Part shown: piece after piece, positions 9,408-23,685 of the stretch
Layout of the letters: each line of letters starts with the position of its first letter
Numbering within the stretch: the stretch's first letter is position 1
IMG/VR virus record: IMGVR_UViG_3300032331_002256
Span: 1 to 23,685 of that record
DNA: 23,685 nucleotides
Origin: a virus
Strand: one strand, 5' to 3'
The notes under the pieces: generated by a model
Seen by the model: only the letters and a program-made list of their open reading frames with translations
Told to the model about the DNA's origin: nothing
The model's database searches: none
Program-made: the position numbers and the translations under genes

Positions 9408-9974
9408 ATGAAAACAAACGTTATAATTGTAGATGACTTTTACACTAATCCTCTGGATGTAAGACAAGTAGCATTGACTCAGGAATTTAAGGTTCGTGGA
9501 AATTATCCCGGATCACGATCTGGACCAATGTTAAATGACTCTATCAAAGACACCATTCAAAAAATCGTGCAACATGCAGGTGGAAACATCATCGACTTTC
9601 CTACAGACGGATACAACGGTTCATTTCAAACAACATACGCTTGGGAGAGATCTTGGATTCACTCAGACCACAATAACAACTGGGCTGGTGTGTGTTATTT
9701 GACTCCAGATGCTCCTCTTTCGGGTGGGACCGGTACATTTAGACACAAGGCAACAAAGTGTTGTGAACGACCCGAAGACGCAGATTTGGCAAAAAGAATC
9801 GAAGCTGATGGAGCAGACGTTACGTGTTGGGATCCTGTCGATTTGATAGGAAATAGATTCAACCGACTCGTTTTGTTTAGAGGACAATCCTATCATGTTA
9901 GTCTTGATTATTTTGGACAGACACTCGATACGTGTAGATTGTTTCAAGTATTTTTCTTCAGTACAGAATATTGA
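9408..9974 (+). CDS. 2-oxoglutarate/Fe(II) oxygenase-like protein (DUF6445-like)
   Basis: 188 residues. The facial triad is visible: H85 and D87 in WIHSDHNNNWAGVCYLTPD, and H163 in LFRGQSYHVS, with R177 (TCRLFQVFFF) placed to bind 2-oxoglutarate. The strand SGGTGTFRHK between them is typical of the double-stranded beta-helix fold. From memory this order matches DUF6445, which is common in marine phages and bacteria. Expected chemistry is hydroxylation of an unknown substrate. It leads directly into two glycosyltransferases, so a hydroxylate-then-glycosylate modification is conceivable. Confidence 0.78.
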   Translation: MKTNVIIVDDFYTNPLDVRQVALTQEFKVRGNYPGSRSGPMLNDSIKDTIQKIVQHAGGNIIDFPTDGYNGSFQTTYAWERSWIHSDHNNNWAGVCYLTPDAPLSGGTGTFRHKATKCCERPEDADLAKRIEADGADVTCWDPVDLIGNRFNRLVLFRGQSYHVSLDYFGQTLDTCRLFQVFFFSTEY

Positions 9975-9979
9975 ACGAT

Positions 9980-11272
9980 ATGCCGTTGAAACTGTTTAAA
10001 ATTGTAGTGTATGGTCTTGATACTCAAGTAGAGTTGAAAACCAATTCTTTGAGCCACGAACATATGGGTGGCAATCATGAACTTGAATATGGAAAAATTG
10101 ATGCTATTGTGTTTCAAACAGACGACAACTTTCCATCTATTTTGCAAAGTTGGGAACCGGATCTTGTTGTTGTAGTGGGAAATATCACATCGTTCCACAA
10201 CATAAACAAACACTTTGATACACTCAAGTCGAAGTTGTATTTGTTTTCATTGGAAGAGTGGAATCGTTATGGTGAAAGTTATATATCAGATTTATTGTTT
10301 CAACGATACATTTCCAATAGCATAAAAAACTACGACAGTCAAAATAAGATCTCAGTATATACTGCATCGTGCAACACCAAGGATAGACTTTTGGTTGCAT
10401 ACGAATCTTTGGAAAAACAGACACATCAAAACTGGGAATGGTCAATATACGATGATTCGTCTGATAATGAAACGTGGGAGGTTGTAAAAAGTTTGGCTAA
10501 ACGTGATAGTCGTATCATCATAAACAAAAACAACAATCAGTCACTATATTCTCGTATTGGACTTAATAAATTCAATGCAGCGGTAAATTGTAGTTCAAAA
10601 TACATCATTGAGTTGGATCATGATGATGCGTTTACTCATGATGCTCTTGAGAAGATATTGTTGACCCATATCAAACATCCAGATTGTGGATTTGTGTATG
10701 GTGATTGGACAGAAATGAACCGTGATACTTTTCAAGAGTATAACTACGGAGAATGTTTTGCGTGGGGATATGGTAAACTTTATGATGCCACTCACCCATT
10801 TTTGAATAGACCAATGAAAGTTGTTGGTGCACCAAATGTAAATCCACTTACAATCAGAAGACTGTGGAGTTTATACAACCATCCAAAGTCATGGAAACGA
10901 GATGTTTACATGAAAATCGGCGGTCACAACAAGTTTTTGAATAGTGCTGACGACTATGAAATGATGATACGAACGTTTTTGAACACAAAAATGGTACACT
11001 TAAATCATTTCTGTTATATTCAGTACATGTATAACAACAATACCAAAGTAAGTAATGGAGGACTTGGTTCTAACTATCACACCGACATATTTAGACATGT
11101 GAGAGTGATAGAGAACCATTACCGAGAACAAATCAAAAAACGATTTGAAGATTTAGGAAAAGTAGATTGGGCATATCAACCACTAAAAAAAGATTGTTTG
11201 GAAGATTTTTACAAAGGACGAGGAAAATATCCATCCGATGAAAACAACGTTAATCTAGAATTTAAACCTTAA
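9980..11272 (+). CDS. GT2-family glycosyltransferase with N-terminal extension
   Basis: 430 residues from ATG 9980; a TTG at 9971 overlapping the previous stop is an alternative. The N-terminal ~120 residues are a separate alpha/beta domain (LVVVVGNITSF). The GT-A fold follows: ISVYTASCNTKDRL (about 124-137), a KQTHQNWEWSIYDDSSD segment for nucleotide binding, and the metal-binding DHDD (about 213-216) in IIELDHDDAFTHDAL. Acceptor unknown: virion protein, modified DNA base, or host surface sugar. It is followed after 3 bases by a second GT2 gene, so the two likely work in sequence. Confidence 0.88.
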   Translation: MPLKLFKIVVYGLDTQVELKTNSLSHEHMGGNHELEYGKIDAIVFQTDDNFPSILQSWEPDLVVVVGNITSFHNINKHFDTLKSKLYLFSLEEWNRYGESYISDLLFQRYISNSIKNYDSQNKISVYTASCNTKDRLLVAYESLEKQTHQNWEWSIYDDSSDNETWEVVKSLAKRDSRIIINKNNNQSLYSRIGLNKFNAAVNCSSKYIIELDHDDAFTHDALEKILLTHIKHPDCGFVYGDWTEMNRDTFQEYNYGECFAWGYGKLYDATHPFLNRPMKVVGAPNVNPLTIRRLWSLYNHPKSWKRDVYMKIGGHNKFLNSADDYEMMIRTFLNTKMVHLNHFCYIQYMYNNNTKVSNGGLGSNYHTDIFRHVRVIENHYREQIKKRFEDLGKVDWAYQPLKKDCLEDFYKGRGKYPSDENNVNLEFKP

Positions 11273-11275
11273 AAT

Positions 11276-12508
11276 ATGAGCGAAAGAAATATCAAAATAG
11301 TATTGAACTCAATGTTCAAAAATGAAGCAGCCGTAGTCGAAAGAATGTTGAATTCAGTATACAAATACATTGACTATTGGGTTATTCAAGACAACGGATC
11401 TACAGATGGAACGCAAGAGATTGTCACCAATTTCTTCAAGGAGAAAAACATTCCTGGTGTACTTTATTATGAACCATGGCAATATTTTGGTTACAATAGA
11501 AATCATGCTCTACAAAAATGTTTGCAAACAGATCATGGGTGTGAATACATTTTGCGTATGGACGCTGATGAAATTCTACAAGTTGATGATTCCTTCGACT
11601 GGAATCAAATACGATCAAATGATGCGTGGAACATTATTGGTCGTACCACAGATATAGATTTCTTCAGAATGTGGATGTGGAAAGCAGATCTTCCTTGGTA
11701 TTTTGCAGATGATCGTCGTCACGAAACCATTCATATGAAAGATGATCAGCCATATAGCTGTGCCAATCTTCCTTCTTCGTTTCGTCACGTTCTAATGGGT
11801 GGCGGTAATACATGGGTAAACCCATACAAGTTCTTCATTGACGCTCTAGAACTCGAAAATCAGGTCGTAGTAAAACAAAAAGGAAAAGATCTATACCACC
11901 TTTTCTATTTGGCAAAATCATACTATGACTCCATCTACGGAGAAACTCTGGTTCACGAACTGGATCATACAAAAGAAATGTGTCGTAGAGCAGAGTTCTA
12001 TTTCACAAAATATATCAAAGCCCAAATTCCATCATATCCAAATGTGGATTTATACAAACTTCAACTTCATGATGAATATGTTTACTACGCATTTTATTTG
12101 ATGGGAAATATGTGTGAGTTGATTGGTGAATATGATAAAGCAGTGGAGTATTGGAAAAAAGGAGCATGGTTTGATAGATCACGCAATGAAACTCTAATCA
12201 AATTGTGTAGCCATTACCTATACAGAATGGATGATATTCCAAACCTTTATATCTATGCCAATATTGCTGTACGAAACAAAAATCCGTTTCCACAGTATCG
12301 AGCAGTTTGGGTTGAACGTGAAGCATATGTAGACTCCGGATGGAAAGCTCTTGACTTTCACGCAATTGGCTCGTACCATATGGGATATTACGATGAAGCT
12401 AAAACTGCATCAGAGCTACTTCTTTCAGATGCATACAAATCAATTTTGCCTGAAACTCAAGTGGAACGAGTAAAAGTCAACCTTAAGTTCACACAAGAAA
12501 AAGTATGA
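11276..12508 (+). CDS. GT2-family glycosyltransferase with C-terminal TPR-like region
   Basis: 410 residues. The GT-A domain opens with IVLNSMFKNEAAVVERML (8-25), then VIQDNGSTDGTQEIV (36-50) and the DxD-type motif RMDADEI (94-100). The C-terminal half is helical with TPR-like repeats (about 268-320: YAFYLMGNMCELIGEYDKAV, EYWKKGAWFDRSRNE). This 'low-copy GT2 plus TPR' layout is known from bacterial protein/peptide glycosyltransferases and phage genes. Acceptor unknown. Its stop overlaps the macro-domain gene by 4 bases (ATGA). Confidence 0.88.
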   Translation: MSERNIKIVLNSMFKNEAAVVERMLNSVYKYIDYWVIQDNGSTDGTQEIVTNFFKEKNIPGVLYYEPWQYFGYNRNHALQKCLQTDHGCEYILRMDADEILQVDDSFDWNQIRSNDAWNIIGRTTDIDFFRMWMWKADLPWYFADDRRHETIHMKDDQPYSCANLPSSFRHVLMGGGNTWVNPYKFFIDALELENQVVVKQKGKDLYHLFYLAKSYYDSIYGETLVHELDHTKEMCRRAEFYFTKYIKAQIPSYPNVDLYKLQLHDEYVYYAFYLMGNMCELIGEYDKAVEYWKKGAWFDRSRNETLIKLCSHYLYRMDDIPNLYIYANIAVRNKNPFPQYRAVWVEREAYVDSGWKALDFHAIGSYHMGYYDEAKTASELLLSDAYKSILPETQVERVKVNLKFTQEKV

Positions 12509-12960
12509 TCATTAGACAAGACGGAGACATCTTTACGTGTCCTGCACAAGCAATTATTCACCAAGCAAATTGTTTTTGTACAATGGGCAGTGGAATCGCT
12601 CGTCAAATTAGAGAAAAATATCCAGAGGCATATGACACCGATTGTCTAACCAAATCGGGAGAGTTCAAAAAGTTGGGAACTTTTAGTTGGGTGAAAGCAC
12701 ACGATGACAAGTACATCTACAACTGTTATAGTCAGTATCGATATGGCCGTGAACAGCGTCATACCAATTACGAAGCCATTTATACTGGTCTCTCCGCCAT
12801 CGAACAACATGCTAAAACCAACGGACTCACCAGTTTGAGTTTGCCACACAATATGGGATGTATGCTTGGTGGTGGATCGTGGAACATCGTAAATGCTATC
12901 ATAGAAGACATTTTTGGAGAAAATAGCATAGATTTGTATATCTGTCGTTATACCCCTTGA
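12505..12960 (+). CDS. Macro domain protein, ADP-ribose-1''-phosphatase (Poa1/ALC1-like) type
   Basis: 151 residues, a single macro domain. Key elements: GDIF (7-10), AIIHQANCFCTMGSGIARQI (16-35, with the ribose-binding Asn22 and the Gly loop), LGTFSWVK, NCYSQYRYG, TNYEAI, and SLPHNMGCMLGGGSWNIV (112-129, phosphate loop). The HQAN...MGSGIA plus GCMLGGGSW form resembles yeast Poa1 and related enzymes that dephosphorylate ADP-ribose-1''-phosphate or remove ADP-ribose from proteins. In a phage with NAD-synthesis genes it may recycle ADP-ribose derivatives or reverse defence-related ADP-ribosylation. Confidence 0.9.
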   Translation: MIIRQDGDIFTCPAQAIIHQANCFCTMGSGIARQIREKYPEAYDTDCLTKSGEFKKLGTFSWVKAHDDKYIYNCYSQYRYGREQRHTNYEAIYTGLSAIEQHAKTNGLTSLSLPHNMGCMLGGGSWNIVNAIIEDIFGENSIDLYICRYTP

Positions 12961-13367
12961 AAAAAGCATTCACACTTATAGAACTGCTGTTAGTCACAAT
13001 CATTTTGGTTGGATTAACAGCAGTTTTTGTTATAAACCTTCAACCACATCCTCTGGAAGCGTACAGAGAGTCTAAAGAGTCTCTCAAGTTGTTTGTATCA
13101 TACCACGTACACCGATCAAAACTTGATCAAAAACAACATACGATTGTATTCGATCCCGAAAAAGGACTAGTCACGTCATTGATTGATTGTCCCATAGATA
13201 TATCGTTAATAACAAACGGACTGGTAATAGTTGATTTTGCAGAACCAATTACGTTTTTTATAGACGGACAATTGAGTGGCGGAGAAATAAAAATAACCTC
13301 ATTGGATGGAAACATAATCAATATCCTTGACATCAATCCAATAGGAATCGTAAGATATAGACCATGA
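12957..13367 (+). CDS. GspH-like pseudopilin (type II secretion / type IV pilus-like)
   Basis: 136 residues, TTG start in TTGA overlapping the macro-domain stop. The N-terminus KKAFTLIELLLVTIILVGL is a textbook class III prepilin signal: two lysines, A before F as cleavage site, Glu at mature position 5, then a hydrophobic helix. The rest follows minor pseudopilin GspH: SLKLFVSYHVHRSKLDQ helix, HTIVFDPEKGLV strand, ITFFIDGQLSGGEIKITS. In the cell it would be processed by the host prepilin peptidase and inserted in the inner membrane. Such proteins are bacterial; in a phage this is unusual. It may be a decoy subunit of the host pilus/secretion machine or captured host DNA. Confidence 0.82.
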   Translation: MKKAFTLIELLLVTIILVGLTAVFVINLQPHPLEAYRESKESLKLFVSYHVHRSKLDQKQHTIVFDPEKGLVTSLIDCPIDISLITNGLVIVDFAEPITFFIDGQLSGGEIKITSLDGNIINILDINPIGIVRYRP

Positions 13368-18116: not shown

Positions 18117-19211
18117 ATGAAACTTGACTTAGACAAACTAGACCTAACGCAGTTTATGGCCCATCATCATATGGTCGCTGGTGAGGTTGTAATGTTGGTT
18201 CAACCACAACACATAGGCACCAAGTGGAGTCAAGATAACAAACATCTTCGGTCCAGTGTGTGGAATAGTGAGGGAGAACTTATTAGTGCAGGCTTTCCTA
18301 AGTTTACCAACTGGGGCGAGAATCCTGACAACTTTCCTGTTCCTTCGTCATTGAAGAACTGCACTGTAATGGAAAAGTTGGACGGTTCACTTTTAATCGT
18401 TAGCAAGTATAAGGGTCAATATATTCTACGTACCCGTGGAACCGTTGACGCTTCTACTATGGCTAATGGTCATGAGTTGGAAGTGTTCAAGGAAAAGTTC
18501 CTAAAGAGTTTGAACCACGATACTCCTGATACTTGGAATGTATCTATTTTGTTTGAGTGGGTGAGTCCTATCAATAAAATTGTATTAAATTATGGCGATG
18601 AACCTGATTGGTATGTAGTTGGTCTAGTTCATCACAGTGATTATAGTCTATATTCCCAAAAAGATTTGGATATGTGGGCAAAAAATAAGGGATTCAAGCG
18701 TCCTGCTACTTATACTTTTACTGATGTCAATGATTTGTTAAAGAATGTTGACCAGTGGAAAGGTAAGGAAGGTGTGGTTGTTTATTCAAAGAATGACCAA
18801 ATGCTTCACAAGGTAAAGGGTGCTTGGTATCTTGCTCTACATCATATGAAGAGTGAACTATCAAACATTGAAAAAGTATTGGATGTGTGGCTAGAACAGG
18901 GTATGCCTGATTATCAGACTTTCTATAACTATATTTTTACCACCTTTGATTTTGAATTGGCAGAGCAGTGCAAAGGTATGATCAGCCGTATTGTTGATGC
19001 CAAGAAGGAAGTCAACAAGATTGTGGATGGTATGAATAATTTTGTGAATAACAGACTTTGTTCATTGCCGTCACGAAAAGAACAAGCACAATTGGTTATA
19101 TCATCATATGGTGAAACAAACAGAGCTGCTTTTGTGTTCAAAATTTTGGATGGTAAGTCATTGGGCAAAGAAGAATACAAGAAGTTGTTATTTCAAGTTC
19201 TAAAGAACTAA
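18117..19211 (+). CDS. rnlA: RNA ligase, T4 Rnl1-like
   Basis: 364 residues, close to T4 Rnl1 (374). Nucleotidyltransferase motifs are in order: I, EKLDGSL (86-92) with K87 as the adenylated lysine; RTRGTVDAS (105-113); IIIa, ILFEWVSPINKIVLNYGD (144-161), very like the FEFV.P.NRIV of Rnl1; IV, EGVVVY (218-223); V, LHKVKGAWY (230-238). A helical C-terminal domain (about 245-364) follows, as in Rnl1 where it recognises tRNA. The enzyme seals 5'-phosphate and 3'-hydroxyl RNA ends, classically repairing host tRNA cut by anticodon nucleases. No polynucleotide kinase-phosphatase is seen in this window. Own promoter and terminator. Confidence 0.93.
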   Translation: MKLDLDKLDLTQFMAHHHMVAGEVVMLVQPQHIGTKWSQDNKHLRSSVWNSEGELISAGFPKFTNWGENPDNFPVPSSLKNCTVMEKLDGSLLIVSKYKGQYILRTRGTVDASTMANGHELEVFKEKFLKSLNHDTPDTWNVSILFEWVSPINKIVLNYGDEPDWYVVGLVHHSDYSLYSQKDLDMWAKNKGFKRPATYTFTDVNDLLKNVDQWKGKEGVVVYSKNDQMLHKVKGAWYLALHHMKSELSNIEKVLDVWLEQGMPDYQTFYNYIFTTFDFELAEQCKGMISRIVDAKKEVNKIVDGMNNFVNNRLCSLPSRKEQAQLVISSYGETNRAAFVFKILDGKSLGKEEYKKLLFQVLKN

Positions 19212-19214
19212 ATC

Positions 19215-19249
19215 AAAAACCCCACTTTAACTGGTGGGGTTTTTGTTTT
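19215..19249. terminator. Bidirectional rho-independent terminator
   Basis: 11-bp perfect stem AAAAACCCCAC (19215-19225) / GTGGGGTTTTT (19234-19244), 8-base loop; T-rich downstream on the plus strand and, by symmetry, on the minus strand. It separates the converging RNA ligase and EF-hand genes. Confidence 0.93.
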
Positions 19250-19252
19250 CAA

Positions 19253-19573
19253 TCAATCTTTCTTATGTGGAGGGCCGTCGTTCTTTGGACCTCTTGGTCC
19301 GCCAGGAGGTGGACCAAAACGTCTCAATGCCTTTCGATCTTCTTCACTTACCTTGGCACGTTCCTCCTTGTCCAACTTTCCGTCTTTGTTGGTATCGTAC
19401 TTAGCGACGATTGCATCACGTTGTTTCTTTTGTTCATCCGTCAACTTTGGACGTGGCGGACCTTCACGCTGTTCTTTGGGTGGACCATCTTGGGGGCGTG
19501 GACCCTTTGGACCTTCTTGTGCATTTACAGTCAACGCCAATGCCACGAACAACATGCTAATATATCTAATCAT
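19253..19573 (-). CDS. Secreted proline-rich EF-hand protein
   Basis: 106 residues, the only confident minus-strand gene. Signal peptide at 1-18 (MIRYISMLFVALALTVNA, cleavage after VNA). The mature protein is Pro/Gly/charged (GPKGPRPQDGPPKEQREGPP), followed by one perfect EF-hand loop DTNKDGKLDKEE (60-71) between helices (TDEQKKQRDAIVAKY and ERAKVSEEDRKALRR), and a PPPGGPRGP tail. It should be exported and bind calcium. Proteins of this build are, from memory, abundant in Verrucomicrobia and Planctomycetes and unusual in phages, suggesting capture from a host. AAAAGG about 6-7 bases before the ATG is a Shine-Dalgarno-like site that most plus-strand genes lack. The plus-strand frames across it are shadows. 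Confidence 0.88.
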   Translation of the reverse strand: MIRYISMLFVALALTVNAQEGPKGPRPQDGPPKEQREGPPRPKLTDEQKKQRDAIVAKYDTNKDGKLDKEERAKVSEEDRKALRRFGPPPGGPRGPKNDGPPHKKD

Positions 19574-19592
19574 ATTTAACCTTTTCTGTTTT

Positions 19593-19616
19593 CACGAATG
19601 AGTCATATCATTCGTG
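19593..19616. promoter_or_regulatory. Inverted repeat in the leader of the EF-hand gene
   Basis: CACGAATGA (19593-19601) and TCATTCGTG (19608-19616) form a perfect 9-bp inverted repeat with a 6-base loop, about 20 bases upstream of the EF-hand start. No T-run follows on either strand, so it is more likely an operator or mRNA 5' hairpin than a terminator. Confidence 0.6.
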
Positions 19617-19674
19617 CGTATACATATGACGTTAAAAGTTGAATTTTAAATCTTTTACTTTTGCTTAACAATTC

Positions 19675-19702
19675 TTGACAGTTGATAAAGTCGTGGTAAG
19701 AT
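19675..19702 (+). promoter_or_regulatory. Promoter predicted to give a leaderless mRNA (gene at 19709)
   Basis: TTGACA (19675-19680), 16-base spacer with TAAAGTCGTGG, TAAGAT (19697-19702), GTTAAC, ATG 19709. Points away from the EF-hand gene. Confidence 0.82.
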
Positions 19703-19708
19703 GTTAAC

Positions 19709-19912
19709 ATGCGTCTATCTCAAATCTATAAAACCACTTACAAAAATGAATACGACAGTCTGCCCAGTTGGAAGAAACTCGCAATCGACGAAGATCGTAA
19801 ATCGAACAAACACACGGGCATTAGTGAAGATTTTGTTCGAGGGGTGATTCAGAAGGCAGAAAGCCAGTTCGACGAAAAACTAAAAGCAAAAAAGAAGTCA
19901 AAAAAGAATTGA
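19709..19912 (+). CDS. Small basic protein
   Basis: 67 residues, with a lysine-rich C-terminus (EKLKAKKKSKKN) and a helical core (YDSLPSWKKLAIDEDRKSN, GISEDFVRGVIQKAESQFD). Size and charge suit a DNA- or RNA-associated accessory protein. No family recognised. Monocistronic by position: promoter at each end, leaderless start. Confidence 0.72.
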   Translation: MRLSQIYKTTYKNEYDSLPSWKKLAIDEDRKSNKHTGISEDFVRGVIQKAESQFDEKLKAKKKSKKN

Positions 19913-20041: not shown

Positions 20042-21748
20042 ATGACGATGTTGTCAACAAAAAACATTATGAGTAATAATCGCAAGTATAAGGAAATAAA
20101 CACGGCAGGCACCAACATTCAAAAGTTATATGGCATTCTCCATTATGATGAAGGTGTTGATATTACCACTCTTGAGGGAAAAGAAGTAAAACGGGCTCAA
20201 TTTACCCTTCAACAAATCAAAGATCTGTTTGAAGACAACAAGTTTGATTTTCCCGAAGAGTATCAACGTGGTCAGGTTACCACATGGCGATCTTTTGGTC
20301 GTCAATGGGTCACAACCCTTTTTAGTCAAGATGGATTTGAACATTTTGACAAACTTCACTTTCGTGAAATCAGAAAGAAAAACTCCAATAGCGTTCGTTA
20401 TCAAGTGGTTGAAGGCGGTCAACGACTGAGAGCCATCAACGATTTCTTTTTCAAACACTCGAAGGATTATCGTTTCCACGAAGGTTTTTATGTCAAGACC
20501 GACAGCGGAGCCATTTTGAACTTCGGAGGATTCACTTGGGATAAACTTCTTAGTCTCAGTGAGTATGATGTGGAATTGGATAGATACCTCACAAAGGTTC
20601 TTTCACGAGCATTTGATGTGTCTGTATATCGAAATTATACTTTATCCGAAATTGCAGACATCTTTTGTAAGATCAACAAAAAGACTCCTCTCAACGATCA
20701 AGAACTTCGTACAGCAATCGGCGGTGAATGTTCTTACGCTGTTCGTAAACTGTCACGCCATGATGCTGAACCTTGTAAGTTTGGTGCATACAAACTTCAT
20801 AAGATGTTTGAGGTATATGAAACGAAAAACGGATATCGTGGCAGTTGGATGGGAATAAAGCCTGCTCGATACGAGTTTGAGGCAACTCTTTCCACGTTTA
20901 TGTTGTTTGAGGAGACATATGCCACCAACAACTCGTTTAACGTCAATAATGAGAACCTTCGAAAAATGTATGAACGTCACTCATACACCGAGTATGGTGA
21001 TCGAAACGATCCTGAGTTTTTGCATGATGATGTAAAGATTGAAGAGTTTAAAAACGCCACTAAGCCTCTCACCAAACTTATCAACAAAGTGTTGTCCCGA
21101 TTTGATACGATCTATCAAATGGTTGATGTGTGTGGATTTACACACAATTCAAAACAAATTCTCACCAAGGGCAATTTGTTTGTTTTGTATGGAATTCTCT
21201 ATCACATTGATACATATTTTCCAGAGTACAATGTGAGTTACGACGCTCGTAAGTTCTATATGTGGTTCTGGAAGAAACACAGTGCGATGTGTAAAACGAC
21301 CGAGGCTGGAACGGGTAAAGTTATTGAATCGAACTATGCTTTGAAAGCTCGTAAGGCACATCGAGAGAAGTCTGAAATCGAAGAGTTGTTTTCGTATTGG
21401 AAGAACATTTTCAGTACCATTACCGAAAATGAAATTGCTGATGCCGGAATTATTCTCAAAGACAAAAAGCGGGTGATTTCCGACGTTGAAGCTCAAACTC
21501 TGTATGCCCAACAAAATGGTAAAGACATAATCACTGGTCAAGACATGCCAGTTGAAGTTCTTCAGAAGGGTCATATCGTGGCACACTCAAAAGGTGGACC
21601 GTCAACGATTGAAAACGCCGTCTTGATCAACAAATTCGATAATCTCCGTCAAGGATCATTAGACTTCAATAACTTTTTTGAAGTTCCCGATTCAGAAGAT
21701 GATGACGAAGATCTTGAAGAAGAGGATCTCCAAGAAGAAGAACAGTAA
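20042..21748 (+). CDS. DUF262-HNH protein (GmrSD/SspE-like endonuclease)
   Basis: 568 residues from ATG 20042; ATG 20069 (559 residues, MSNNRKYKEIN) is equally plausible. The N-terminal DUF262 domain shows EEYQRGQVTTW (72-82) and YQVVEGGQRLRAINDFF (120-136); the usual DGQQR motif reads EGGQR here. A long helical middle follows, then a C-terminal HNH nuclease: GHIVAHSKGG (510-519), ENAVLI, FDNLRQG, with H511, H515 and N525/N534 as likely catalytic and metal residues and no zinc cysteines. An acidic tail (SEDDDEDLEEED) ends it. The pairing is that of type IV-like restriction enzymes that sense modified DNA or phosphorothioation. In a phage it may attack competing phages or host DNA. Confidence 0.85.
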   Translation: MTMLSTKNIMSNNRKYKEINTAGTNIQKLYGILHYDEGVDITTLEGKEVKRAQFTLQQIKDLFEDNKFDFPEEYQRGQVTTWRSFGRQWVTTLFSQDGFEHFDKLHFREIRKKNSNSVRYQVVEGGQRLRAINDFFFKHSKDYRFHEGFYVKTDSGAILNFGGFTWDKLLSLSEYDVELDRYLTKVLSRAFDVSVYRNYTLSEIADIFCKINKKTPLNDQELRTAIGGECSYAVRKLSRHDAEPCKFGAYKLHKMFEVYETKNGYRGSWMGIKPARYEFEATLSTFMLFEETYATNNSFNVNNENLRKMYERHSYTEYGDRNDPEFLHDDVKIEEFKNATKPLTKLINKVLSRFDTIYQMVDVCGFTHNSKQILTKGNLFVLYGILYHIDTYFPEYNVSYDARKFYMWFWKKHSAMCKTTEAGTGKVIESNYALKARKAHREKSEIEELFSYWKNIFSTITENEIADAGIILKDKKRVISDVEAQTLYAQQNGKDIITGQDMPVEVLQKGHIVAHSKGGPSTIENAVLINKFDNLRQGSLDFNNFFEVPDSEDDDEDLEEEDLQEEEQ

Positions 21749-21850: not shown

Positions 21851-23685
21851 ATGAAGACCATCGAAAGTAATCGTATCCTTCAAGAGTCGAATCCGTTTAC
21901 CAGCTATCAGTTTGGTATTCGTAATGAAGACCTTCCTCACATTTTTGGAGTGCTTCGCAATCAGATGTACTCTGACAAGATCCTCGCTGTTATTCGTGAA
22001 TACAGCACCAACGCATATGACGCACACGTCGTTGCTGGTATCAAGGATTCTCCTATCTTCATCACTCTTCCGTCTGCTCTGTTTCCTGAGTTTCGAGTTC
22101 GTGACTACGGATTTGGTATGAGCGAAGATCAAGTGAAAGACATTTATGCTTGGTATGGCAACAGCACCAAACGAAACGACAATAATACTGTGGGACAGCT
22201 TGGATTTGGTTCCAAGAGCGCATTTGCATACGGCGACAACTTTGTAGTCACCAGTTACCACGACGGCAAGAAAACCATTTACAACGCCGTTATTGATCCT
22301 TCCAAGAAAGGAAAGATCAGCAAACTTCATGAGGAACCCATGTCGAAGGATGATCTTACTGGCATTGAAATCACCGTGCCGGTAAAACCCTCTGACTTCG
22401 GTTTGTTTGTTCAAAAGGCACGTAATTTCTACGCATATTGGGATATTATGCCTCGTTTTGCTGGCTATGACAAAAACACTTTTTGTGCCCGACCCAATGT
22501 TGTAATCGAATCAGATACATGGAGCATTACGGGTGATTTGGGTGGAATTTCAACGTCTCGTATTTTTGCTTTGATGGGCAATGTTGTGTATCCTATCAAC
22601 TTCGAGATTTTGTCTGAAAAGTCCGGCGTTGACACATCAGATGTTGTTGTTGTAAACAACATTACGTTGTTGAAGAATTTCCTAGGTCGTAACTATAATA
22701 ATCTGATTATCAAGTTCAAGATCGGAGATCTGGAAATCAGTTCGAGTCGTGAGAGTCTTCAATATAGTGATCATACCCTTAAAAACATTTATGCTCGAAT
22801 CAATTGTGTAATTGATCATATCAAACAGAGTGTTCATGAAAAGTTTCATGTATGTAAAAGCATGTGGGACGCAAAGCTTTTGTACCATGAATACTTTGAG
22901 AACTATGGAAGCAAATTTTATGGAATGGAAAGTCAAATTGGCAATGTAAAATGGAATGGTGTTTATGTAAATTCTTCTCATTTTCTTGGCTTCCAACGTT
23001 GGTGTAACGTCAACGGACATATTGATGATGCAACATACGACTCTTTTGTTAGAAAAGGTATTGCTGAAGGTCAATATGACAGTGTATTGACTACGGGACG
23101 GTGGCGTAACAACGGATGGCGTCTTCGTAGTTGTACTTTGCACGAAAGTCCTGATATTGCGGCGAGTCATTCGTCTGTGTTTATCGTGAACGATATTCCA
23201 AAAGTGTCTTTGCTTACCAAGTGTATTCAACAGATTTTGCAAAATAAATCTAGTCACAATGTGAGCCGTGTATACATTCTTCAATTCAAGAAAGATGGAT
23301 TGAAGGACGAATTCATCAAACACTATAACCTTGAAGGATGTCCGATGTATTATGTCTCGGAAGTGTTTGACGAGGTTCGTGAAAAAAACAAGCGTGTTCG
23401 TAAACCCACATCTGAGTTGTCTTCTGTTAAGACCGTTGACCTTGGAAGAACGTTTCTATCAAGATCAACTTGGTATGACAATCAGGTTGATTTGGCACAG
23501 GAAAAGGGATATTATGTTCCGATTGAGTTCAATGAACCTGTTCACGATACTCGTCGAATTGAATTTGAAGACATCAAGTCTATGCTTACCATTGTAAATA
23601 AAATGTCAGGTAATCATGTCACACCAAACATTTGTCTTTATGGATTCAATGCCAGGATTCTATCGTCACGGTCTTTTAAGAACAA
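21851..23685 (+). CDS. rIIA: rIIA-like GHKL ATPase, incomplete at the right edge
   Basis: An open frame of at least 611 residues runs off the window without a stop. The N-terminal Bergerat ATPase fold is clear: N-box REYSTNAYDAH (49-59), G1 box RDYGFGMS (84-91), G2 box GQLGFGSKSAFAYGD (115-129), then the ISSSRESLQYSD segment typical of phage rIIA and other GHKL proteins. In T4, rIIA is a membrane-associated early protein that protects against exclusion by prophage RexAB; its molecular role is still unclear. rIIB is usually next, so it may lie just beyond the edge. It has its own promoter after a terminator. The long minus-strand frames over it are shadows. Confidence 0.9.
   Translation, partial: MKTIESNRILQESNPFTSYQFGIRNEDLPHIFGVLRNQMYSDKILAVIREYSTNAYDAHVVAGIKDSPIFITLPSALFPEFRVRDYGFGMSEDQVKDIYAWYGNSTKRNDNNTVGQLGFGSKSAFAYGDNFVVTSYHDGKKTIYNAVIDPSKKGKISKLHEEPMSKDDLTGIEITVPVKPSDFGLFVQKARNFYAYWDIMPRFAGYDKNTFCARPNVVIESDTWSITGDLGGISTSRIFALMGNVVYPINFEILSEKSGVDTSDVVVVNNITLLKNFLGRNYNNLIIKFKIGDLEISSSRESLQYSDHTLKNIYARINCVIDHIKQSVHEKFHVCKSMWDAKLLYHEYFENYGSKFYGMESQIGNVKWNGVYVNSSHFLGFQRWCNVNGHIDDATYDSFVRKGIAEGQYDSVLTTGRWRNNGWRLRSCTLHESPDIAASHSSVFIVNDIPKVSLLTKCIQQILQNKSSHNVSRVYILQFKKDGLKDEFIKHYNLEGCPMYYVSEVFDEVREKNKRVRKPTSELSSVKTVDLGRTFLSRSTWYDNQVDLAQEKGYYVPIEFNEPVHDTRRIEFEDIKSMLTIVNKMSGNHVTPNICLYGFNARILSSRSFKN

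Follow-up and report, generated by a model that had tools for sequence, protein, structure and literature searches.

The locus considered here raises the question of why a phage should carry one gene on the strand opposite to its neighbours, and what the small protein it encodes might do. The window, a stretch of 23,685 nucleotides of viral DNA (IMG/VR record IMGVR_UViG_3300032331_002256), had been given a first-pass annotation from its letters, in which the interval 19253-19616 was read as a lone antisense gene for a secreted EF-hand protein, independently regulated and captured as a moron from a host related to Verrucomicrobiota or Planctomycetota. The gene is real, although it is shorter than the interval: an ORF for 106 amino acids, with an ATG start and a TGA stop, occupies 19253-19573 on the minus strand, and the 43 bases of 19574-19616 are non-coding by the ORF call and constitute its 5' leader. 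It is also the sole minus-strand gene of the window, since each of the other minus-strand ORFs shadows a longer plus-strand tiling.

The convergent neighbour (18117-19211, plus strand) encodes a T4-type RNA ligase/tail-fibre attachment protein (PF09511, E 1e-14; phrog_562, E 1e-38) and provides a syntenic anchor. A bidirectional intrinsic terminator at 19214-19245, found on each strand, is common to this gene and the EF-hand gene. On the other side, a sigma-70-like promoter TTGACA-16-TAAGAT (19675-19702, plus strand, 10/12 matches) serves the divergent gene at 19709-19912 (plus strand), whose 67-residue product has no assigned function (cluster c17); a homologue of it is found near the EF-hand gene in several relatives. 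Both the terminator and the divergent promoter had been anticipated in the first-pass annotation.

Several other plus-strand genes of the window deserve mention. The gene at 20042-21748 encodes a 568-residue protein, GmrSD_N/DUF262-like in one part and HNH-like at the C-terminus, weakly matching NsnA and the HNH region of Cas9d, and is possibly a phage-borne restriction-type gene. It is absent from a related contig, L131, where an rIIA-like gene directly follows the gene for the 67-residue protein. In the window, the gene at 21851-23685, which continues past the window end, is one that we take, by eye, to be rIIA-like, and this fits the T4-like nature of the phage. Farther upstream lie a gene for a 136-residue protein whose N-terminus MKKAFTLIELLLV resembles that of type IV prepilins (12957-13367; TIGR02532, weak match to ComGD), a gene for a macro-domain protein resembling the antitoxin DarG (12505-12960; PADLOC, E 1.5e-20), for which a role in counter-defence against DarT-type ADP-ribosylation is possible, and an adjacent pair of family-2 glycosyltransferase genes (9971-12508), the second with a TPR-like part.

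The EF-hand protein begins with a Sec-type signal peptide (residues 1-18, 19520-19573, minus strand), read from the sequence as MIRYISMLFVALALTVNA followed by QEG, with cleavage predicted between VNA and QEG. Its hydrophobic core and the small residue at position -1 are retained in the aligned homologues, and the region is helical (residues 6-16) in the AlphaFold2 model. Export through Sec to the periplasm or the cell surface is probable, in keeping with the earlier prediction of secretion. The signal peptide is followed by a Pro/Gly/Gln/Lys-rich stretch, a helix-loop-helix core (residues 46-86, 19316-19438, minus strand) and a C-terminal PPPGGPRGPK tail. The model has a mean pLDDT of 64 and is confident for the core only (about 70-88, with 76-88 across residues 41-80), with helices at residues 46-59, 69-74 and 77-86; the remainder appears disordered, and the Pro/Gly/Lys-rich tails are probably unstructured.

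The core contains one canonical 12-residue EF-hand loop, DTNKDGKLDKEE (residues 60-71, 19361-19396, minus strand), with the pattern D60-x-N62-x-D64-G65-x-L67-D68-x-x-E71, near-invariant in 14 aligned phage proteins. The perfect EF-hand described earlier is thus borne out: the loop has Asp at position 1, Asp/Asn at 3, Asp at 5, Gly at 6, a hydrophobic residue at 8 and Glu at 12, and lies between two helices, 46-59 and 69-74 in the model. Pfam EF-hand_1/5/7 match this loop alone (E 3e-4 to 2e-3), scoring 18-21.6 bits against curated gathering cut-offs of 25.4-30. Such a sub-threshold score is expected for one short motif, and the name EF-hand is therefore taken from the loop and not from the Pfam threshold. 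The chain holds this single loop and not the usual pair, and a loop of this kind may be expected to bind Ca2+ or a similar cation. Family searches returned no PHROG or NCBIfam family for the protein.

Among characterized proteins, the nearest experimental parallel is the calcium-binding protein CaBP of Caulobacter, an EF-hand protein of the periplasm that the ECF sigma factor SigV activates (PMC13171946). It is likewise small, Sec-exported and tied to an ECF sigma factor, as the chromosomal homologues described below appear to be, but it is a cellular protein of 133 residues, it has three EF-hands, its mobility was measured to shift with Ca2+, and no phage copy is mentioned in that work (PMC13171946). 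EfhP of Pseudomonas (PMC4053335, PMC9132961) is also a bacterial EF-hand protein, one that modulates stress responses; unlike the phage protein, it has two EF-hands and measured Ca2+ binding, and is not phage-borne. Lanmodulin (6mi5, 8fns) is another small periplasmic EF-hand protein and gives a weak profile match (E about 6e-3). However, its EF-hands, of which there are several, have Pro at position 2 of the loop, while the phage protein has one loop with Thr61 at that position.

Homologues were found in 2.9 million viral contigs at 31 loci by the single sequence and at 49 by a family alignment; 50,697 sequenced phage records gave no DNA or protein match to the gene. With the RNA ligase as an independent anchor (ligase identity of at least 70% and 4 kb or more of sequence downstream), the EF-hand gene is present in 19 of 20 loci, 0.7-3 kb downstream of the ligase gene, and each of the 23 EF-hand matches near a ligase anchor runs opposite to the ligase gene. 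Several of the anchored contigs are near-identical to one another, and these counts therefore represent fewer independent cases than contigs. The group to which the window belongs (group 1) comprises 20 distinct proteins, the window's included, and in 18 of them both immediate neighbours are on the opposite strand. The median dN/dS among 18 group-1 genes is 0.20, indicating purifying selection. Low pN values are seen for the helix-loop-helix (0.09) and the C-tail (0.06), while those of the signal peptide and the Pro-rich part are higher.

The exception among the anchored loci is L131, a 171 kb contig with an 84% identical ligase and no copy of the EF-hand gene anywhere in it; several more distant relatives are also without the gene. 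In L131, the space from the ligase terminator to the next gene in synteny is taken up by two unrelated minus-strand genes (L131:11125-11824), one for 123 residues and the other for 107 residues with a peptidyl-tRNA-hydrolase-like start MSTGKIASQAGHA. The opposite-strand slot thus persists though its content changes, and it has the look of a site for accessory genes on that strand. In a second group of phages (L010-L031), the EF-hand gene sits between tail-tube-like and tail-sheath-like genes, and it is often adjoined by a homing-endonuclease-like gene of the same orientation, which suggests a way in which it could move. The first-pass annotation had proposed this comparison of presence and absence, and had named a conserved gene of constant orientation among related phages as the outcome that would speak against capture as a moron; 19 of 20 loci with a constant strand is that outcome for this lineage. 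The gene is a settled part of a T4-like lineage and not a recent hitch-hiker.

Its origin was sought, again along the lines first proposed, in a search of one genome per species across ~85,000 prokaryote species. The best 37 chromosomal matches are all from Verrucomicrobiota, and a profile built from the phage proteins recovers single-EF-hand chromosomal members with E down to 2e-25. The gene is, on the evidence of these matches, host-derived, and its source is Verrucomicrobiota specifically, a more exact placing than the Verrucomicrobiota/Planctomycetota-like host of the earlier proposal. The phage lineage itself probably infects Verrucomicrobiota, the host phylum being assigned here from the homologues of the EF-hand gene. 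The chromosomal members, an unnamed family (L033-L076), are stand-alone genes encoding secreted proteins of mostly 80-105 residues with the same domain order and core sequence as the phage protein: a signal peptide, a K/P-rich linker, a helix with the AKYDTNKDGKLDKEER loop, an 'SEEDK' helix and a short K-rich tail. They are monocistronic like the phage gene, and their flanks showed no recurring operon partner (an ECF sigma gene, for example). They differ from the phage protein, to which they are about 40-60% identical, in lacking the PPPGGPRGPK tail.

The two sets also differ in their promoters. An ECF-sigma-type promoter, TGTAAC-N15-18-CGTC, precedes 31 of the 53 chromosomal homologues, where shuffled sequences would give 0.025, and none of 37 phage promoters has it; regulation thus differs in the phages, and the chromosomal genes, with their TGTAAC-N16-CGTC arrangement, are without the phage box described below. 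The upstream regions of L033-L076 carry a very uniform version, TGTAAC-N16/17-CGTCT, which is a probable conserved envelope-stress regulon signal of Verrucomicrobiota. In a tree of 84 proteins the phage copies form two main groups, apart from the chromosomal sequences, and its well-supported branches require at least two label changes. This indicates one or more transfers, long ago, the short alignment limiting further resolution.

The regulation of its own that had been claimed for the gene is seen as a predicted promoter and a terminator, both conserved in the phage homologues. Reading upstream on the minus strand, the Shine-Dalgarno sequence AAAAGG noted earlier lies at 19580-19585, and most homologues have an AAAGGA-type motif in the equivalent position. 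Just 5' of it, at 19593-19616, the leader forms a hairpin with a perfect 9-bp stem CACGAATGA/TCATTCGTG and the loop TATGAC (fold -11.8 kcal/mol, z -3.8). The homologues keep this hairpin with 19 different stem sequences, among them GTAATC/GGTTAC, TCAGC/GCTGA and GTCAACT/GGTTGAC, and its retention through differing stems amounts to covariation; it is absent in a third phage group. A -10-like element TATGTATAC at 19618-19626 aligns with TATGTATAG of the group-1 relatives. It is preceded, at 19654-19671, by a tandem box with an 11-bp period, TTGTTAA-GCAA-AAGTAAA, recognized by upstream comparison and resembling OmpR/PhoB sites. The consensus of this box in the phages is TTGTwAAG-N3-nTGTAAAA, with 7-base direct repeats of 11-base period, and its distance upstream of the start codon is 93-102 nt for groups 1 and 2, compared with 61 nt for the third group. 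A terminator follows the stop codon in nearly every phage copy. A cassette of box, -10 element, leader hairpin, Shine-Dalgarno sequence and terminator, common to divergent phage groups, is new here. A sigma-70 reading of the same minus-strand region, TTGTTA-17-TAAAAT, was set aside, as the relatives have no conserved TAAAAT and instead conserve the tandem box with a -10 element TATGTATA further downstream.

Of 37 phage promoters, 29 contain the box, and of 53 chromosomal promoters none does; this count was made on the same promoters from which the pattern was derived. An independent check was provided by ten large phage records (1.65 Mb), which hold six exact matches, all at the EF-hand promoter and one per record, while the reversed control pattern has four matches in the same records; of the four records that give no exact match, L131 lacks the gene and the others have a degenerate box. 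Occurring once per record and at this gene, the box is a gene-specific site, and the possibility that it marks a phage-wide promoter class was rejected.

Sites for the PhoB/OmpR family are arranged as direct TGTnA repeats with a period of 11 bases, and the phage cassette has this layout, adjoining a promoter. Upstream of pstS in the Verrucomicrobiota genomes that carry EF-hand homologues, a Pho box YGTCAC-N5-YGTAAC is found in 15 of 24 cases, and where those homologues are closest to the phage gene the box stands before the gene preceding pstS (TTGTCACACGAATGTAACA, ATGTTACACAAATGTAACA, GCGTCACGCAATTGTAACA). The phage box (e.g. TTGTTAAGGAAATGTAAAA) shares period and core with the host Pho box, but each of its half-sites ends in A where those of the recovered TGTCAC-type host boxes end in C, as in the pair of host ATGTTACACAAATGTAAC and phage TTGTTAAGGAAATGTAAA. 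Scored with a host Pho matrix, the phage box is the top site in most group-1 promoters, though at p<0.05 against shuffles in only 9 of 36. The TGTwAA half-site was not found before pstS in 24 + 29 + 60 Verrucomicrobiota loci, where TGTCAC- and TTAAC-type half-sites are seen; the TTAAC-type repeats belong to AT-rich, more distant genomes, and site preference thus varies within the phylum. The Pho box of Verrucomicrobiota also occurs at times as three tandem half-sites (L191-L220, L251-L253). Assignment of the phage box to the OmpR/PhoB type is made with moderate confidence, while the mismatch at the half-site end and the matrix scores mean that the regulator may not be PhoB, which is itself a low-confidence choice. 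Host PhoB does bind some promoters of cyanophage S-PM2d, and the study that tested such boxes calls bioinformatic prediction of Pho boxes in phage genomes unreliable (PMC10976474). The PhoB-controlled cyanophage genes (pstS of P-SSM2 and genes of S-PM2d; PMC10976474) share with the present gene an upstream direct-repeat site for a host regulator; they differ in their cargo, and in that PhoB binding was measured there, while the box here resembles a Pho box.

The explanation that best accommodates these observations, and in which we place about even confidence, is that the gene specifies a long-established, host-derived, Sec-exported, cation-binding envelope protein, expressed from its self-contained cassette by the host RNA polymerase with a regulator of the OmpR/PhoB family. 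As the cassette is self-contained and opposes the phage operon, its expression likely depends on host polymerase and regulator more than on the phage programme. The host polymerase would transcribe it with the aid of a host OmpR/PhoB-family response regulator, and the leader hairpin, probably the stabilizing element, would together with the terminator give a stable monocistronic mRNA. Once exported to the periplasm or surface, the protein would bind Ca2+ or a related cation. It would replace or boost a protein for envelope homeostasis whose synthesis in the host is under ECF sigma control, and the envelope or cation balance of the infected cell would be kept suitable until lysis.

Two alternatives concern the control of the cassette and the standing of the gene. 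The cassette might be constitutive, or controlled by something outside the OmpR/PhoB family, such as a phage factor or a repressor for which the box is the site, the role of the protein being unchanged; this is a doubtful but serious contender. The partial match to the host Pho box would suit it, and group-2 phages have a good -35 TTGAC beside the box, for which no activator is needed. Yet the direct repeat of TGTnA at 11-bp spacing is a typical PhoB-like layout, the box in group 1 stands immediately upstream of a weak -35, and its confinement to one promoter is unlike the site of a phage-wide transcription factor. Far less credible, and the least probable of the readings considered, is that the gene is a sporadic, recently captured moron without a fixed role. 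What stands of the moron label is the foreign origin, the terminator and, by its sequence, the promoter of its own, and the gene is indeed missing from L131 and several more distant relatives. Patchy presence, however, does not describe close relatives of which 19 in 20 carry the gene at the same place and strand, and the phage clades are separate from the chromosomal sequences, with dN/dS at 0.2.

The other two alternatives concern the purpose of the protein. In superinfection exclusion or adsorption interference, the secreted protein would coat or modify the receptor or sequester the Ca2+ of competitors, its own promoter allowing early synthesis. A small secreted product with its own promoter on the opposite strand, retained under selection, is what such a role would call for, and the two other minus-strand genes in the L131 slot recall exchangeable accessory functions. 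On the other hand, the protein has no PADLOC match, and the presumed host phylum has the same protein on its chromosomes under an ECF promoter, which makes a purely anti-competitor role less natural; we regard this role as unlikely. A virion or lysis component, packaged or acting with the lysis machinery at the envelope, with Ca2+ as a structural ion, is more improbable still. Many T4-like phages need divalent cations, and the group-2 gene sits among tail genes, but virion genes would hardly be expected to encode a Sec signal peptide or to be transcribed separately from the opposite strand, and the chromosomal homologues are stand-alone cellular genes.

Returning to the preferred reading of a host-derived envelope protein under host-type control, a bolder version of it can be offered tentatively, with rather more doubt than confidence. 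A host gene under ECF stress control, taken perhaps more than once, may have been rewired to a PhoB-type phosphate-starvation switch and kept outside the phage programme, so that envelope cation buffering would follow the nutrient state of the host. Auxiliary phage genes that derive from the host and have host-type regulation are already known, and the present gene belongs among them; its cargo and presumed host phylum are new among the sources searched. Single phage genes under the control of a host regulator are known mainly from the phosphate genes of cyanophages; if the reading is true, such control extends to a new phylum, Verrucomicrobiota, and to a new cargo, an envelope EF-hand protein. 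The analysis also identifies a widespread unnamed family of Verrucomicrobiota, small secreted EF-hand proteins with a uniform ECF-type promoter.
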